A program made the translations under genes and the position numbers. DNA of 23,023 bases. Source: a virus. Under the pieces are notes generated by a model. That model saw nothing but the letters and a program-made list of their open reading frames with translations. It did not search any database and was not told the origin of the DNA. Shown piece by piece: positions 1,747-20,277 of the stretch; position 1 is the first letter of the stretch, and every line of letters starts with the position of its first letter. The DNA is taken from positions 1 through 23,023 of the IMG/VR virus record IMGVR_UViG_3300049222_000652, one strand, 5' to 3'.

Positions 1747-1974
1747 TTAAATTATTACTTTATCTCTCAATATTACAGGTATTGAAGTGCTACTTGTATA
1801 GCTTTTGTACTTTTCGAAGCAAGGCATTGACTCAAGCTTACTTTTCATTATGTCATACACTTTATCATGATTATACTTTACTTGTTTTCCATTTTTGAAA
1901 GTGACTTCAATTACTTGGTTTTTTCCGATTAGTGATTTTCTTACAACGAAGCGTTTAGATTTTAGATTTTGCAT
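1747..1974 (-). CDS. Small phage protein, paralogue of 2234-2464 (75 aa)
   Basis: A 75-residue leftward protein starting MQNLKSKRFVVRKSLIGKNQ. It is clearly homologous to the product of 2234-2464: both share SKRFV.RKSLIGKNQ.IEVTF, YNHD, and CFEKYKSYTSSTS.PVILRD in the same order. The pattern suggests a small beta-rich N-terminal half, a central helix (KVYDIMKSKLES) and a conserved C-terminal segment. There is faint similarity to KTSC-type small domains (VTFKNG followed by a helix), not enough for assignment. It has its own promoter-like motif (2016-2046) and a strong terminator (1701-1736), so it is probably a single-gene unit. Function unknown. Confidence 0.75.
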   Translation of the reverse strand: MQNLKSKRFVVRKSLIGKNQVIEVTFKNGKQVKYNHDKVYDIMKSKLESMPCFEKYKSYTSSTSIPVILRDKVII

Positions 1975-2015
1975 AGTTAATTTATTTAAGTTATTATTAT
2001 TTTTTAGTTACATTA

Positions 2016-2046
2016 ATATTATCTGAATGGTTTCGTATTTTGTTTG
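2016..2046 (-). promoter_or_regulatory. Putative phage promoter, copy B of five
   Basis: Read leftward: CAA, 6 nt, TACGAAA, 7 nt, AGATAATAT. It ends about 41 nt before the ATG of the 1747-1974 gene and is preceded by a GCTATACAC box (2053-2061). The spacing of the three blocks is identical in all five copies. Confidence 0.65.
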
Positions 2047-2052
2047 ACGAGT

Positions 2053-2097
2053 GCTATACACGCAAGCGTTTTACGGCGAAGCGAAGATGCTATACAC
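2053..2097. repeat. Two GCTATACAC boxes
   Basis: The 9-mer GCTATACAC occurs at 2053-2061 and 2089-2097, and again at 2542-2550; a variant (GCTATACGC) lies at 2663-2671. Each lies next to GC-rich sequence in an otherwise AT-rich region, and three of the four lie just upstream (leftward sense) of the promoter-like motif. It could be a binding site for an activator or the edge of a duplicated cassette; neither is shown. Confidence 0.5.
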
Positions 2098-2114
2098 GAC
2101 GCCCTTCGGGCGCC
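2098..2114 (-). other. GC-rich hairpin beside a GCTATACAC box
   Basis: Read leftward it forms GGCGCCC, loop GAA, GGGCGTC: seven pairs including one G-U. On the plus strand that pair would be A-C, so the leftward RNA is the better folder. There is no following T run, so it is not a classic terminator. It lies between the structured element at 2130-2166 and the promoter at 2016-2046. Confidence 0.6.
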
Positions 2115-2129
2115 ATTATGTTGTAGGAC

Positions 2130-2166
2130 GGAGTCTACTCTTCCGACTCTATTTCAAAGTCAGGCT
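2130..2166 (-). ncRNA. Candidate structured RNA element, copy 1
   Basis: This 37-nt stretch matches 2576-2612, although the flanking bases differ. Read leftward, CCTGACT pairs with AGTCGG (one bulged T), then CGGAAGAGTAGACTCC follows, identical in both copies. The stem bases differ between the copies but stay paired (GACT/AGTC here, GGTT/GACC in copy 2). It lies outside any credible protein gene, 3' of the 2234-2464 gene and 5' of a promoter-like motif. It could be an independent small RNA, a 3' end element or a protein-binding leader. The conservation and pairing are seen; RNA function is inferred. Confidence 0.45.
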
Positions 2167-2175
2167 TTAATACTA

Positions 2176-2218
2176 TGACATTAGCCTCATAAGTTATATA
2201 AGTAAGAGGCTATTGTCA
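2176..2218. terminator. Long hairpin after the 2234-2464 gene
   Basis: TGACATTAGCCTC and GAGGCTATTGTCA form a 13-position stem with one mismatch and a 17-nt loop, 15 nt past the stop of the leftward gene 2234-2464. The T run (ATTTTT) follows it only on the plus strand, so it is best explained as a 3' hairpin of the leftward gene or as a rightward terminator for an unseen transcript. Confidence 0.5.
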
Positions 2219-2233
2219 CATTTTTAGTAATTA

Positions 2234-2464
2234 CTACACGAGTTGCTTATCGCGTAGTATTACTGGAACTGAAGTGCTTGAAGTATATGATTTGTATTTT
2301 TCAAAGCAGTTCATTTCATTTAGTTTGTCTTTCATTATTTCGTAAGCTAAATCATGATTGTATGTAAATGTTTTACCTGATTTAAATGTTACTTCAATGA
2401 TTTGATTTTTTCCGATTAAAGATTTTCTAATGACGAATCTTTTTGATTGAATTGAATTTTGCAT
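2234..2464 (-). CDS. Small phage protein, paralogue of 1747-1974 (76 aa)
   Basis: A 76-residue leftward protein beginning MQNSIQSKRFVIRKSLIGKN, closely similar over its whole length to the product of 1747-1974. The C-terminal CFEKYKSYTSSTSVPVILRD is nearly unchanged, while the central YNHDLAYEIMKDKLNEMN differs more. The conserved Phe, Tyr and Ser/Thr-rich tail is probably functional. The leader is AT-rich, and the promoter-like motif at 2504-2534 ends 39 nt upstream. The arrangement promoter, gene, hairpin repeats that of the paralogue, so the cassette was duplicated as a unit. No function is known to me for this family. Confidence 0.75.
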   Translation of the reverse strand: MQNSIQSKRFVIRKSLIGKNQIIEVTFKSGKTFTYNHDLAYEIMKDKLNEMNCFEKYKSYTSSTSVPVILRDKQLV

Positions 2465-2503
2465 AGTATTTATTATTTATTAATTATTAAGTTATTTACA
2501 AAT

Positions 2504-2534
2504 ATATTATCTTAGTACTTCCGTAAAAAGCTTG
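2504..2534 (-). promoter_or_regulatory. Putative phage promoter, copy A of five
   Basis: Read leftward: CAA, 6 nt, TACGGAA, 7 nt, AGATAATAT, followed by ATTTG. The sequence TATATTTG fits the Bacteroidota -7 consensus TAnnTTTG, so a host-type sigma factor could read it. It ends 39 nt before the start of 2234-2464. Confidence 0.65.
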
Positions 2535-2541
2535 ACAGAAT

Positions 2542-2564
2542 GCTATACACCCCCCAGGGGGGGG
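2542..2564. repeat. GCTATACAC box joined to a C6-A-G8 palindrome
   Basis: GCTATACAC (2542-2550) runs into six Cs, one A and eight Gs (2550-2564). The block can fold as a short GC hairpin on either strand. It takes the same position as the hairpin at 2098-2114 relative to the box, promoter and structured element. Homopolymer runs like this are rare in such AT-rich DNA and could vary in length. Confidence 0.55.
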
Positions 2565-2568
2565 CGGC

Positions 2569-2616
2569 GTACAGTGGAGTCTACTCTTCCGGTCTTGTCT
2601 CAGAACCAGGCTGTAC
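2569..2616 (-). ncRNA. Candidate structured RNA element, copy 2
   Basis: Read leftward, an outer stem GTACAG/CTGTAC (2616-2611 with 2574-2569) encloses a second stem, CCTGGTT with GACCGG (one bulged T, one T-G pair), and the conserved CGGAAGAGTAGACTCC. The predicted start site of the promoter at 2624-2654 falls at about 2617, at the foot of the outer stem, so a transcript could begin with this structure. The pair that is T-G on the leftward strand would be C-A on the other, which favours the leftward RNA. It may be a free small RNA or the leader of 2234-2464. Confidence 0.5.
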
Positions 2617-2623
2617 TACAATA

Positions 2624-2654
2624 ATATTATCCTACAACTACCGTAAAACCCTTG
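2624..2654 (-). promoter_or_regulatory. Putative phage promoter, copy E of five
   Basis: Read leftward: CAA, 6 nt, TACGGTA, 7 nt, GGATAATAT. No protein gene starts within 150 nt. Its immediate downstream sequence is the structured element at 2569-2616, which makes this promoter the main reason to suspect a non-coding transcript. A GCTATACGC box lies 8 nt further upstream. Confidence 0.6.
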
Positions 2655-2900
2655 AAGAGTATGCTATACGCCCTGGCGGGCGGGGGCTAAAACGTAAAAA
2701 ATCTAGAGGTTTTATGTAAAACGGCCAGGGGCTGGGCAAAAATGTTTAACTTTGGCAAGTGGGCTATGTCAATATTTTTCTATATATAACACTTTACTTC
2801 TCTATTTCTAACAAAAAAGATGACACAAGCGTTATAAGTATTATAAGTAATAGGCAAATGTCACGTTTAAATAGCAAATTAACCAAGTGATTATAAAAAT
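2655..2900. other. Divergent intergenic region between leftward and rightward blocks
   Basis: No credible protein gene is seen here. It holds a GCTATACGC box with a GCCC-TGGC-GGGC hairpin (2663-2681), a second GC island GGCCAGGGGCTGGGC (2722-2736), GTAAAAC/CGTAAAA direct repeats, an AT-rich tract around 2771-2792 that could carry a rightward promoter (TCTATATATAAC), and a segment at 2821-2863 whose TGACA...TGTCA ends and TTATAAGTA repeats resemble the hairpin at 2176-2218. It is the natural place for divergent promoters or other control elements. That role is inferred. Confidence 0.4.
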
Positions 2901-4090: not shown

Positions 4091-5656
4091 ATGGAATTTA
4101 ATAACCCTAGTCAGATAGTTAAAGATCTGACATTTGGCGATGCAGCCAACAGTAAAATAATGTCAGGCGTCGAAAAATTAACAAGCGCAGTAAAGAGTAC
4201 TTTAGGTGCTTCTGGAAAATGCGTAATTTATGAAGACGCACTTGGCCGACCGGTAATTACAAAAGACGGAGTAACCGTTGCAGAAAGCGTAGTCTTGATA
4301 GACCCGGTCGAAAATATTGGAGCAACCTTAATTAAAGAGGCTGCTGCTAACACAGTAAGAGAAGCAGGTGACGGTACTACTACAGCTACCGTTCTTGCTT
4401 ATTCTATATTAAAAAGTATAAACGATTCAGATAATGAAGAAACGATTAGAGACATTAAAGCTGGCATTTATAAATGTAGCGAAAAAGTTATGGTTTATCT
4501 TAATAAAACCAGTATACCGGTTAAAAATAAAATGCTCAAAGAAGTTGCTGCAATATCATGTAACAACGACAAAGAGCTTGGAGGCAAAATTGGAGAAGCT
4601 TATGAAAAAGTTGGAAAAGATGGAGTCGTTTTAATGGAAGAGTCCGAGACAAACGAAACTTATGTTGAGTTTGTTGATGGCGTTCAATTTGATTCTAGAC
4701 TAAAATCTCCACACTTAGCTACAGATAAAGAAAAATCTGTTTGTACGTTAGATAATCCTTATGTTCTTTTAGTTTCTTCGCCAATACCAAATATTAGAAA
4801 AATACAAAGTGTATTGGAGTTTGTTATTAAAAATAAAAAACCACTACTTATTGTAGCAGATGTAGAGCATCAACCATACGCAACTCTTATTGCTAATAAA
4901 GTTAAAGGTAATATTAAGGTTAACGTAGTAGATCCTCCTGGCTTTGGCCCAACAAAACTACAGTCTATGGAAGACTTAGCGTTTCTAACTGGAGCTAAAC
5001 TCATGAATGAAGAGCTAGGCGATGATTTAGATCTTATAGAGCCATCTGTTTTAGGTAAAGCAGTAAAAGCTGTTACAGATAATAGCAATACTGTTTTACA
5101 AGTAGAAGACAAAGGTGATGAGTTAAGCGATCGTATAGAAGATGTAAAGAAAAGTATAAAAGAAGAAACTAATGGATTCTTTAAGAAAAAGCTCGAGCAG
5201 CGCCTTGCAATGTTATCCGGTGTTGTCGGTATTATCAAAGTTGGTGCTGACAGTAAGGTAGAGCTCAAAGAAAAGAAAGATAGAGTTGAAGACGCTATAT
5301 ACGCTACTAAAGCAGCATTAAAAGAAGGTATTGTTGCTGGTGGAGGAGTTGCTTTATTAAACGCGGCTCAAAATGTTAAAGCAAATTCTACTGGTGAAAA
5401 AATATTACTTGAAGCCATTAAGGCCCCTTATAAAACTATACTTAGTAATGCTGGTATAGAAGAAAAATATTTTGACAGAAAAAACACTGGACTAGATGTT
5501 AAAACTGGCTTAAAAGTAAATATGATTAAACACGGTATTATAGACCCGGTTTTGGTTACAAAATCGGCGCTAAAAAATGCCGTAAGTGTTGCTACTACAA
5601 TTGTTTCAGCAGACTGTATAATAAGTAATAAAAGATTAGAAGATGCAAGCAATTAA
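4091..5656 (+). CDS. groEL: Phage-encoded chaperonin GroEL (Cpn60)
   Basis: The product is 521 residues and aligns along the whole GroEL fold. It forms a double-ring ATPase cage that folds proteins in the cytoplasm together with GroES. Equatorial motifs are intact: TLG at 37-39, TKDGVTVAES from 57, DGTTT at 94-98, RVEDAIYATKAA with catalytic Asp at 401, VAGGGVALL at 415-423, IIDP at 483-486. The apical domain (about 185-370) is divergent: where E. coli has YLSPYF, this protein has LKSPHL, and Gln239 stands where E. coli has Leu234, both in the substrate and GroES binding groove. The C-terminal Gly-Gly-Met tail is absent. It is followed by groES with a 14-nt overlap. Phage chaperonins are known but uncommon. 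Confidence 0.96.
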   Translation: MEFNNPSQIVKDLTFGDAANSKIMSGVEKLTSAVKSTLGASGKCVIYEDALGRPVITKDGVTVAESVVLIDPVENIGATLIKEAAANTVREAGDGTTTATVLAYSILKSINDSDNEETIRDIKAGIYKCSEKVMVYLNKTSIPVKNKMLKEVAAISCNNDKELGGKIGEAYEKVGKDGVVLMEESETNETYVEFVDGVQFDSRLKSPHLATDKEKSVCTLDNPYVLLVSSPIPNIRKIQSVLEFVIKNKKPLLIVADVEHQPYATLIANKVKGNIKVNVVDPPGFGPTKLQSMEDLAFLTGAKLMNEELGDDLDLIEPSVLGKAVKAVTDNSNTVLQVEDKGDELSDRIEDVKKSIKEETNGFFKKKLEQRLAMLSGVVGIIKVGADSKVELKEKKDRVEDAIYATKAALKEGIVAGGGVALLNAAQNVKANSTGEKILLEAIKAPYKTILSNAGIEEKYFDRKNTGLDVKTGLKVNMIKHGIIDPVLVTKSALKNAVSVATTIVSADCIISNKRLEDASN

Positions 5657-5900
5657 TTATTATTTAGTAGTTGACAAAATAAAAGAAGCGCCGAAGAAAG
5701 TAGGTGGCCTTGAGCTTACTGAATCTCAAGACAACGACGTAAGATATTTAAAAGGCAAAGTTATAAGTGTTGGTGATCAAGTTCCTGTAGTAAAAAAAGG
5801 TGATATAGTTAGATACGACAAACACCAAGGATATGGAATACATTACAACGAAAAACTTTATTATGTTATAAAAATATCTGATGTTGTTATAGTAGAATGA
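5643..5900 (+). CDS. groES: Phage-encoded co-chaperonin GroES (Cpn10)
   Basis: An 85-residue protein of GroES length and layout: N-terminal strand INYYLVVDKI, mobile loop APKKVGGLELTES (residues 16-28), core KGKVISVGD (38-45), KKGDIVRYDKHQGYGIHYNE (51-70) and C-terminal strand VIKISDVVIVE. In GroES the loop contacts GroEL through a Gly-Ile-Val-Leu segment; here it is Gly-Leu-Glu-Leu, an altered contact that may match the altered GroEL groove. The start overlaps groEL by 14 nt and the end overlaps the next gene by four, so the genes are coupled. The order groEL-groES is the reverse of the usual bacterial order. Confidence 0.88.
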   Translation: MQAINYYLVVDKIKEAPKKVGGLELTESQDNDVRYLKGKVISVGDQVPVVKKGDIVRYDKHQGYGIHYNEKLYYVIKISDVVIVE

Positions 5901-16818: not shown

Positions 16819-17061
16819 ATGGCAGAAAAAATCGCAAAAAAAGAATTAACTAAGCTTCAAGACTTAGTGAAAAACTACAATCAACATCAATTAAAACTAG
16901 GCGAGCTAGAAGTTGAAAAGCATAGATTACTACACAGTATATCAAATGTTCAAGAAGAACTTCAAAAGTTTCAAGATGAATTAAAAGAAACCTACGGTGA
17001 AGTTAGCATCGACATCAATGATGGTAAAATTGCAAAAAATGAGCCTAGTAAGGAAGATTAG
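16819..17061 (+). CDS. Coiled-coil phage protein (80 aa)
   Basis: The 80-residue product begins MAEKIAKKELTKLQDLVKNY. Residues 8-58 are heptad-like (LQDLVKNYNQHQLKLGELEV, KHRLLHSISNVQEELQKFQD) and predict a coiled coil; the tail GEVSIDINDGKIAKNEPSKED is a short beta/disordered end. This family occurs beside packaging genes in marine phages (from memory) without a known role. A virion assembly chaperone or connector is possible. It follows a gap with a promoter-like box. Confidence 0.65.
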   Translation: MAEKIAKKELTKLQDLVKNYNQHQLKLGELEVEKHRLLHSISNVQEELQKFQDELKETYGEVSIDINDGKIAKNEPSKED

Positions 17062-18067: not shown

Positions 18068-20277
18068 TGTACGAGCAGAGTTTATATAAAATTATACAAC
18101 CTATAAAAATAAATACATTAAATAGATTAAATAAATCTAAAAAATGGAAATACGGTTACAACAAAGAAAATGATGTTGTAGTTATAAGTAAAACTGGCCA
18201 AATTGGAGAAATTTACGAAATACAAGGTCTTAAAATAGCGCTTCCTAAGCGACCTAAAGAAATACATAAAGGTGAAGATAGGTGGAAGCCTAAAGAATAC
18301 CCTAGAGAGCTTAAAAACATTAATAGCGTGTTTGAGTGGAGAGATTATCCAGAAGATTTTAAAGCTAAATGGGAAAATTATATTGATAATGAATTTAAAA
18401 AACGAGAAGAAGGTCATTGGTTCTATAATAGAGGTGTGGCTACTTACATTACTGGCACTCACTTTATGTACTTGCAGTGGAGCAAGATTGATGTTGGGAA
18501 ACCAGACTTTAGGGAAGCAAACAGATTATTCTTTATATTCTGGGAGGCTTGTAAAGCAGACGCACGATCTTACGGAATGTGTTACCTTAAAAACCGTCGT
18601 TCAGGATTTTCGTTCATGTCTTCAGCAGAAGCCGTTAATATGGCGACAATTACGTCAGATGCACGGTACGGTATCTTGTCTAAGTCTGGAGCCGATGCTA
18701 AGAAAATGTTCACAGACAAGGTTGTACCAATATCAGTCAACTACCCGTTCTTTTTCAAACCCATCCAGGACGGTATGGACAGGCCCAAGACAGAACTCGC
18801 TTATAGAATACCAGCCAGTAGGCTCACAAGAAAGTCAATACAAAACAAACAAGAACAAGAAACGCTCGAAGGATTAGACACTACTATTGATTGGAAAAAC
18901 ACAGGAGATAATAGTTATGATGGTGAAAAACTAGCTTTATTAGTGCACGATGAAAGCGGTAAATGGGAAAGACCAGATAATATATTAAATAACTGGAGGG
19001 TTACAAAAACCTGTCTTAGATTAGGTTCTAGAGTTATTGGAAAGTGTATGATGGGATCAACTTCTAATTCATTAGATAAAGGTGGAGAAAATTTTAAAAA
19101 ACTATATTACAACTCCGATGTTACTAAAAGAAACAGGAATGGACAGACTAGCTCAGGATTATATTCTTTGTTCATACCTATGGAGTGGAACTACGAGGGA
19201 TTCATTGATTCTTATGGACACCCTGTTTTCGATACTCCAGAAAAACCAGTAGAAGATACGTATGGTGATTTAATAGAGACAGGTGTTATAGAACATTGGC
19301 AAAATGAAGCCGAGGGTTTAAAAAACGACCAAGATGCGTTAAACGAGTATTATAGGCAGTTTCCTAGAACTGAAGAGCACGCGTTTAGAGATGAAACAAA
19401 AAACAGTATATTTAATTTAGTTAAAATATACGAACAAATAGATTACAATGAAGATCTATTAAACACAAACGTTGTTTCTACAGGAAGTTTTCAGTGGGAA
19501 AACGGAATAAAAGATACTAAAGTTAAATTTACACCAAATAAAAACGGAAGGTTTAAAATAACTTGGGTTCCTAGCTATAGTTTGCAAAACAAGCAAATTT
19601 TAAAAAATGGAATAAAATATCCTGGAAACGATCATATAGGCGCTTTTGGTTGTGATAGTTATGATATTTCTGGTACAGTTGATGGGCAAGGTTCTAAAGG
19701 TTCATTGCACGGCTTAACAAAGTTTAGCATGGAAGACGCGCCTCCAAATTCTTTTTTTCTTGAATACATAGCTAGACCTCAAACGGCAGAAATGTTTTTT
19801 GAAGATGTATTAATGGCTTGTGTATTTTATGGCATGCCTCTTTTGGCTGAAAATAATAAACCAAGACTTTTGTATTACTTTAAAAGAAGAGGTTATAGAG
19901 GATATTCTATGAACAGGCCAGATAAACTTTGGAATAAACTTTCTATAGCAGAAAAAGAAATAGGAGGTATACCAAACTCTAGCGAAGACATTAAACAAGC
20001 ACATGCAGCAGCTATTGAATCTTATATAGATAAATATGTAGGATTAAAATCAGATGCACAATATGGAGACATGTATTTTAATAAAACATTAAATGATTGG
20101 GCTAAGTTTGATATAAATAAAAGAACAAAGTTTGATGCCGCTATAAGCTCTGGTTTAGCTATAATGGCTTGCAATAGGCATTTATATAGACCTGTTGCTA
20201 AAGTAGAAAAACAACCAATAAATATAAAAATCGCTAAGTTTAGTAATAGTGGTAATTTATCAAAAATAATAAAATAA
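18067..20277 (+). CDS. Terminase large subunit
   Basis: The 736-residue motor cuts phage DNA and pumps it into the capsid with ATP. The N-terminal ATPase has a variant Walker A-type loop LKNRRSGFS (174-182), a Walker B-type LALLVHDES (289-297) with acidic Asp295 and Glu296, and a coupling segment MGSTSNS (329-335). The nuclease half begins about 520 with FGCDSYDISG (Asp530, a likely metal ligand), then ARPQTAEMFFEDVLMACVFY, LLAEN, LLYYFKRRGYRGY and a C-terminal KFDAAISSGLA carrying another Asp. The gene continues directly into the portal gene. Part of the ATPase coding region (18541-18840) has clearly higher GC than the rest. Confidence 0.92.
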   Translation: MYEQSLYKIIQPIKINTLNRLNKSKKWKYGYNKENDVVVISKTGQIGEIYEIQGLKIALPKRPKEIHKGEDRWKPKEYPRELKNINSVFEWRDYPEDFKAKWENYIDNEFKKREEGHWFYNRGVATYITGTHFMYLQWSKIDVGKPDFREANRLFFIFWEACKADARSYGMCYLKNRRSGFSFMSSAEAVNMATITSDARYGILSKSGADAKKMFTDKVVPISVNYPFFFKPIQDGMDRPKTELAYRIPASRLTRKSIQNKQEQETLEGLDTTIDWKNTGDNSYDGEKLALLVHDESGKWERPDNILNNWRVTKTCLRLGSRVIGKCMMGSTSNSLDKGGENFKKLYYNSDVTKRNRNGQTSSGLYSLFIPMEWNYEGFIDSYGHPVFDTPEKPVEDTYGDLIETGVIEHWQNEAEGLKNDQDALNEYYRQFPRTEEHAFRDETKNSIFNLVKIYEQIDYNEDLLNTNVVSTGSFQWENGIKDTKVKFTPNKNGRFKITWVPSYSLQNKQILKNGIKYPGNDHIGAFGCDSYDISGTVDGQGSKGSLHGLTKFSMEDAPPNSFFLEYIARPQTAEMFFEDVLMACVFYGMPLLAENNKPRLLYYFKRRGYRGYSMNRPDKLWNKLSIAEKEIGGIPNSSEDIKQAHAAAIESYIDKYVGLKSDAQYGDMYFNKTLNDWAKFDINKRTKFDAAISSGLAIMACNRHLYRPVAKVEKQPINIKIAKFSNSGNLSKIIK

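Follow-up and report, generated by a model that had tools for sequence, protein, structure and literature searches.

The question raised by positions 2,569 to 2,616 of IMG/VR virus record IMGVR_UViG_3300049222_000652 is whether a short sequence found twice on one strand, next to a stem that changes its bases and stays paired, encodes an RNA, and what such an RNA could do for the phage. The window, i.e., the whole 23,023-nt stretch analysed, is a 23 kb virus fragment in which late genes (GroEL/GroES, tail fibre, terminase, portal) run rightward from ~2900 and small genes run leftward. The terminase is closest to that of an uncultured 61 kb podovirus (62.7%), followed by those of Flavobacterium elemo podoviruses (46%). 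Within the late region, GroEL-like (521 aa) and GroES-like (85 aa) genes lie side by side at 4091-5900.

Two copies of the element in the window

We found the two copies that an earlier note on this DNA had claimed, with CGGAAGAGTAGACTCC identical on the minus strand at 2591-2576 and 2145-2130 (Table 1). When up to three mismatches are allowed, this sequence has three matches in the window (0.02 expected), and the two copies share 74% identity across 58 nt. The leftward order is promoter, copy 2, 76-aa gene, copy 1 and 75-aa gene, the genes being placed 487 bp and the RNA elements 446 bp apart. A putative tandem duplication of the element together with its 75-aa gene, followed by divergence, explains this arrangement, copy 1 and the 75-aa gene being the duplicate of copy 2 and the 76-aa gene.

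A promoter predicted by the earlier note right at the foot of copy 2 is recovered as a GATAATAT-type -10 at 2618-2631 (-), although a simple sigma-70 scan does not report it. The motif also precedes leftward genes, at 2498-2511 (perfect match), 2010-2023, 1467-1480 and 551-564, and with one mismatch it has 18 matches compared to 4.9 expected. No clear promoter was recognised for copy 1, which may rely on read-through.

Two further repeats mark this region. The sequence TGCTATACRC occurs at 2052, 2088, 2541 and 2662 (four matches vs. 0.08 expected, all within 2050-2675), where it adjoins GC-rich hairpins and promoters; it is also seen around the elements of relatives, at times within their P2 stem. 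In turn, a hairpin TGACRTTAGCCT...AGGCTAAYGTCA (window 2175-2223 and 2820-2868) recurs in many relatives, where it adjoins elements and the ends of genes; it has the appearance of a bidirectional terminator or operator.

Table 1. Coordinates of the RNA element copies and adjacent features in the window.
Feature	Position	Strand	Remarks
RNA element copy 2	2569..2616	-	Covariance-model match 51 bits; P1 GTACAG/CTGTAC (2616-2611 with 2574-2569), P2 with bulged U2608, invariant core, 3' ACTGTAC tail
Core of copy 2	2576..2591	-	CGGAAGAGTAGACTCC, including the GAG/CTC mini-hairpin
RNA element copy 1	2123..2168	-	Covariance-model match 68 bits; AAAGCC-U-GACTTT-GAAAT-AGAGTC-GG, core, GTCCTAC tail
Invariant core of copy 1	2130..2145	-	
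Phage-type -10 motif GATAATATTATTGT	2618..2631	-	Just upstream of copy 2; perfect match
76-aa small protein gene	2234..2464	-	Between copies 2 and 1; heads the leftward array; own -10 at 2498-2511
75-aa paralogue of the 76-aa protein	1747..1974	-	After copy 1; 74% aa identity
GC-rich hairpin and GTGTATAGCA motif (TGCTATACRC)	2541..2568	-	After copy 2, 5' of the promoter of the 76-aa gene
Inverted repeat TGACATTAGCCTC...GAGGCTATTGTCA	2175..2223	.	Flanked by the 76-aa gene and copy 1; a similar sequence lies at 2820-2868

Structure and conservation

The family follows the consensus RGGC/UCUG-[covarying stem]-CGG-AA-GAGUAGACUCC-RNCCURC-U-rich. Its stem P2 consists of C-C/G-G pairs and a bulged U, followed by as many as six more pairs whose sequence is free. 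The compensatory changes that the earlier note had read from two copies extend through the family, as the stem adjacent to the core strongly covaries in sets of 56 and 110 distinct homologues. In the 110 sequences, 87% of P2 cells are paired; changes on both sides of a pair number 150, as opposed to 43 ± 11 in shuffles, which ignore relatedness, and at most 50 in slid registers. The covariation score is 0.304, compared to 0.119 in the same kind of shuffles and at most 0.066 in slid registers. The 110-sequence alignment was fitted to the model and is thus biased towards structure, but the same result was obtained with 56 sequences aligned independently by MAFFT. At the basal pair alone, 19 swaps from C-G to U-A were counted.

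The covarying stem is found on one strand only, and many G-U pairs occur there; on the other strand they would be A-C, which bears out the earlier argument that a T-G pair points to the leftward strand. The bulged T proposed then also stands, though at another position: the best register is CC-U-GNN / NNC-GG, with C-C facing G-G at the base and the bulged U following, as indicated by the covariation of columns 8:54. On the same grounds we dropped our first register of P2, which had a T-G pair and no bulge. GNRA or GNRA-plus-one loops are present in 14 of the 131 copies vs. ~3.4 in shuffles, an approximately 4-fold enrichment. The P2 region measures 16, 17 or 20–23 nt, and since these differences are not multiples of three and shift the frame, a protein-coding region was ruled out.

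As for the core, it is near-invariant: one search form with a relaxed CGGA gave no new loci, and relaxing the core hairpin gave seven, five of them genuine variants. The GAG/CUC mini-hairpin of the core is neither supported nor refuted, because the core hardly varies. An alternative GUAG/CURC helix, which the RNCCURC tail could form, competes with GAG/CUC and is paired in 95.5% of cases with no covariation. A U-rich stretch follows at a fixed distance, ~15 nt past the core, with a conserved T there (97% and 73%). The GTACAG/CTGTAC closing stem noted earlier is present in copy 2 as a related register of P1. Family-wide, P1 is optional: at least four pairs can form in 25 of 110 sequences (shuffled mean 14.8, maximum 22 in 200 shuffles), and a universal P1 is unsupported. 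The predicted folds of six members are no more stable than those of shuffled sequences (z -1.9 to +1.0), so the structural case rests on covariation.

Distribution and novelty of the family

Wider pattern searches placed the family at about 175 or more sites in viral contigs, with 1 to 10 copies per record. The exact 16-mer is present in 117 stretches of viral contigs, in the same context in nearly all of them, a few being chance matches. The carriers are Bacteroidota viruses, including three cultured marine groups; among cultured phages, Tenacibaculum phage Larrie carries three copies, Cellulophaga phages phi19:2 and phiST three each and Flavobacterium phage immuto one. The covariance model R1 found no match in 13 other Bacteroidota phage records (phi38:1, phi14:2, phi10:1, phi19:1, phi18:1, FCL-2, P12024S, elemoA, MW202828, crAss001, DAC15, B40-8 and MA9V-1), which is no proof of absence, given that the 635 kb phage LR745206, which had a BLAST match, likewise escaped R1.

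Among 395 Bacteroidota genomes, one match was detected, a full element with its own promoter motif, at a locus that we read as a candidate prophage. A host chromosomal RNA was rejected, as the pattern search of genome contigs gave four matches, all devoid of the element structure; the plasmid search yielded nothing relevant. Among the collections searched, the element is thus almost restricted to phages and patchy in distribution.

Neither the window nor five homologous loci matched any Rfam 15 family at its gathering score. At E 10, window positions 2000-2900 matched only U6 (E 6.8), with no CRISPR-repeat (CRISPR-DR) family in the window region, and the tRNA/tmRNA search found none. In the literature, where our coverage was partial and an earlier catalogue listing is possible, no description of the element was found. 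On these comparisons, the element probably represents a new RNA family that matches none of those catalogued; to our knowledge, the small RNAs of Bacteroidota phages have been little explored. The homologue search with covariation statistics and the Rfam comparison, both proposed in the earlier note, are in keeping with its suggestion of a leftward small RNA or leader of no known class: many homologues carry further compensatory changes, the supported strand is the leftward one and no family is reached at gathering score. The covariance model could annotate at least 100 phage loci that are currently blank.

Genomic context and orientation

The genes flanking the element differ among copies and include genes that we judge TerL-like and DUF932-like by their sequences, and members of the 75-aa family. 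Two groups of phages can be distinguished. In group H, comprising many freshwater and large phages, Larrie and immuto, the copies are mostly antisense to the surrounding genes. In Larrie, annotated CDS are nearly all on the minus strand and 3/3 elements on the plus strand, so that the element is not a leader of annotated genes; in immuto, the element is on the minus strand and its flanking genes are on the plus strand. Both neighbours are on the opposite strand in 21 of 87 copies.

In group M, to which the window belongs, the element stands at the start of a co-directional gene array or close to it, shortly after the coding strand switches: downstream genes are on the same strand in 348 cases and on the opposite strand in 25, and upstream genes are evenly divided (198 vs. 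197). A family of 72-136-aa proteins with invariant F, Y, HD and P usually accompanies the element in this group; it is encoded within ~1 kb in ~58 marine loci, upstream as often as downstream, and has no convincing Pfam or PHROG match.

Two arrangements of paired elements were also observed. At L046 4106-4996, a 296-aa gene, presumably DUF932-like and with relatives in L212 and L218, lies between two inward-pointing elements. A degenerate inverted copy (12 bits) in Larrie (17000-17059; L132 2192-2251, minus strand) faces the copy at 16933, and its GGGTAGACTCC could pair with GGAGTCTACCC.

Promoter motifs and terminators

Many copies have a promoter motif just upstream. A TAnnTTT[GA] motif lies within 75 nt upstream of 58 of the 131 copies, a moderate excess over 34 and 37 in control stretches, and 22 of the remaining 73 have a GATAAT-type -10. 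The host-type TAnnTTTG promoter motif is clear in individual cases of group H, e.g., the Larrie copy at 18782, which has the promoter TACCTTTG and a terminator AAACCTC..GAGGTTTT. By a crude scan, dedicated terminators on the element strand were found for only 9 of 112 copies; a general intrinsic terminator at the end of the element was thus rejected, and the 3' end is uncertain. In several phages (L200, L207, L219, L231, L237), a palindrome like TTTAGAATNATTCTAAA, to our mind reminiscent of a Fur-type box, is positioned ~25–45 nt past the core.

What the element may do

The reading that we favour, to which we give about an even chance, is that the element makes up the conserved body of a phage small RNA of ~60–120 nt that stands alone and targets a conserved host factor in trans. 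The RNA would be transcribed early and on its own, from host-type TAnnTTTG promoters in many phages and from the GATAATAT-type phage promoter in the group of the window. P2, whose sequence is free, would serve as a scaffold holding out the invariant core and tail for recognition; the near-invariance of the core suggests that the RNA touches a host-cell component which is itself highly conserved. Action in trans appears most likely because the core is constant across unrelated Bacteroidota phages, whereas orientation, copy number and neighbours vary. The target could be an RNA-handling machine of the host, e.g., RNA polymerase or an RNase, which would be turned to the advantage of the phage. 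In group M, the element would head the early operon and hence be made first. Against this reading are the rare terminators, the co-directional downstream genes of group M, as expected of a leader, the absence of a clear promoter for copy 1 and the lack of rRNA complementarity, the longest core matches to a single 16S and a single 23S rRNA from Bacteroidota being within the shuffled range, which also led us to reject rRNA mimicry. A wider version is possible but doubtful: a phylum-wide, phage-specific small RNA that would engage, in trans, a conserved machine of the host such as the Bacteroidota RNA polymerase, as a trans counterpart of putRNA or 6S RNA, and serve as a general takeover device of unrelated phages. 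That phages ranging in size from ~45 kb to several hundred kb share a near-invariant 11-nt core suggests a single conserved target in the host, and the four cultured phages with laboratory hosts make the element directly testable.

The strand bias of group M also suits a cis-acting nascent RNA which, like HK022 putRNA, would modify host RNA polymerase as it is made and suppress pausing and termination in the early operon. We regard this main rival as unlikely, even though the element, at ~65 nt with two hairpins, follows promoter motifs at the head of early operons there, and the conserved T past the core resembles part of a -10-like sequence or a U-rich pause. Such an RNA should lead a same-strand operon, and this holds in group M only: downstream of 3/3 Larrie copies only antisense genes are annotated, the 21 copies described above oppose both neighbours, and the downstream genes of the window carry -10 motifs of their own.

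The near-restriction to phages, multiple copies, host-type promoter motifs and near-invariant core, as well as the patchy distribution with no R1 match in the 13 phage records, would also be expected of an RNA that counteracts a host defence system as a decoy or mimic (an RNA anti-CRISPR, an antitoxin mimic or similar). We hold this to be quite improbable, since variable defence targets should make a decoy vary more, and the window region gave no match to CRISPR repeats.

Still a little less probable is a 5' leader or riboswitch for the downstream gene, in the window that of the 75/76-aa proteins. The proximity of the 72-136-aa family in group M and a window duplication that spans both element and gene agree with it. 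Yet this gene is found equally often upstream, a separate -10 lies in the window between the element and the ATG of the gene that follows, and other copies are antisense or lie beside unrelated genes; elements are not consistently upstream of related same-strand genes. The antisense copies in Larrie and elsewhere imply that the element is not simply a gene leader, and the small RNA is favoured because copies can be antisense to all neighbouring genes. Finally, a DNA site (operator or terminator) is already disfavoured and highly improbable: inverted repeats are common in the region and copy 1, read on the plus strand, is scored as a stem resembling a terminator, but the stem covaries with G-U pairs on one strand only, GNRA-type loops are enriched and promoter motifs lie upstream.

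Comparison with known systems

With HK022 putL and putR the element shares an early-region location, a length of ~65–70 nt, two hairpins, proximity to a promoter and a -10-like or U-rich sequence at a fixed distance (PMC9378689). In putL, a pause occurs 21 nt past stem II, and a -10-like sequence is present (PMC9378689). The two stem-loops within ~70 nt downstream of early promoters correspond here to P2 and the mini-hairpin. HK022 put RNA binds the zinc-binding domain of the beta-prime subunit and antiterminates, and by analogy RNA polymerase is a candidate partner of the element. In contrast to put, the element has up to 10 copies, many of them antisense, and is found in phages of Bacteroidota hosts; an informal comparison revealed no sequence relation.

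Solitary CRISPR repeats and RNA anti-CRISPRs are likewise short phage RNAs with a conserved core; the element resembles both in these traits and differs in that its window region matches no Rfam CRISPR-DR family. T4 RNA C/D and lambda 6S are stand-alone phage small RNA genes without a known function, each confined, as far as we know, to one phage group. Unlike them, the element spans unrelated phages of a phylum and does so with a near-invariant core.
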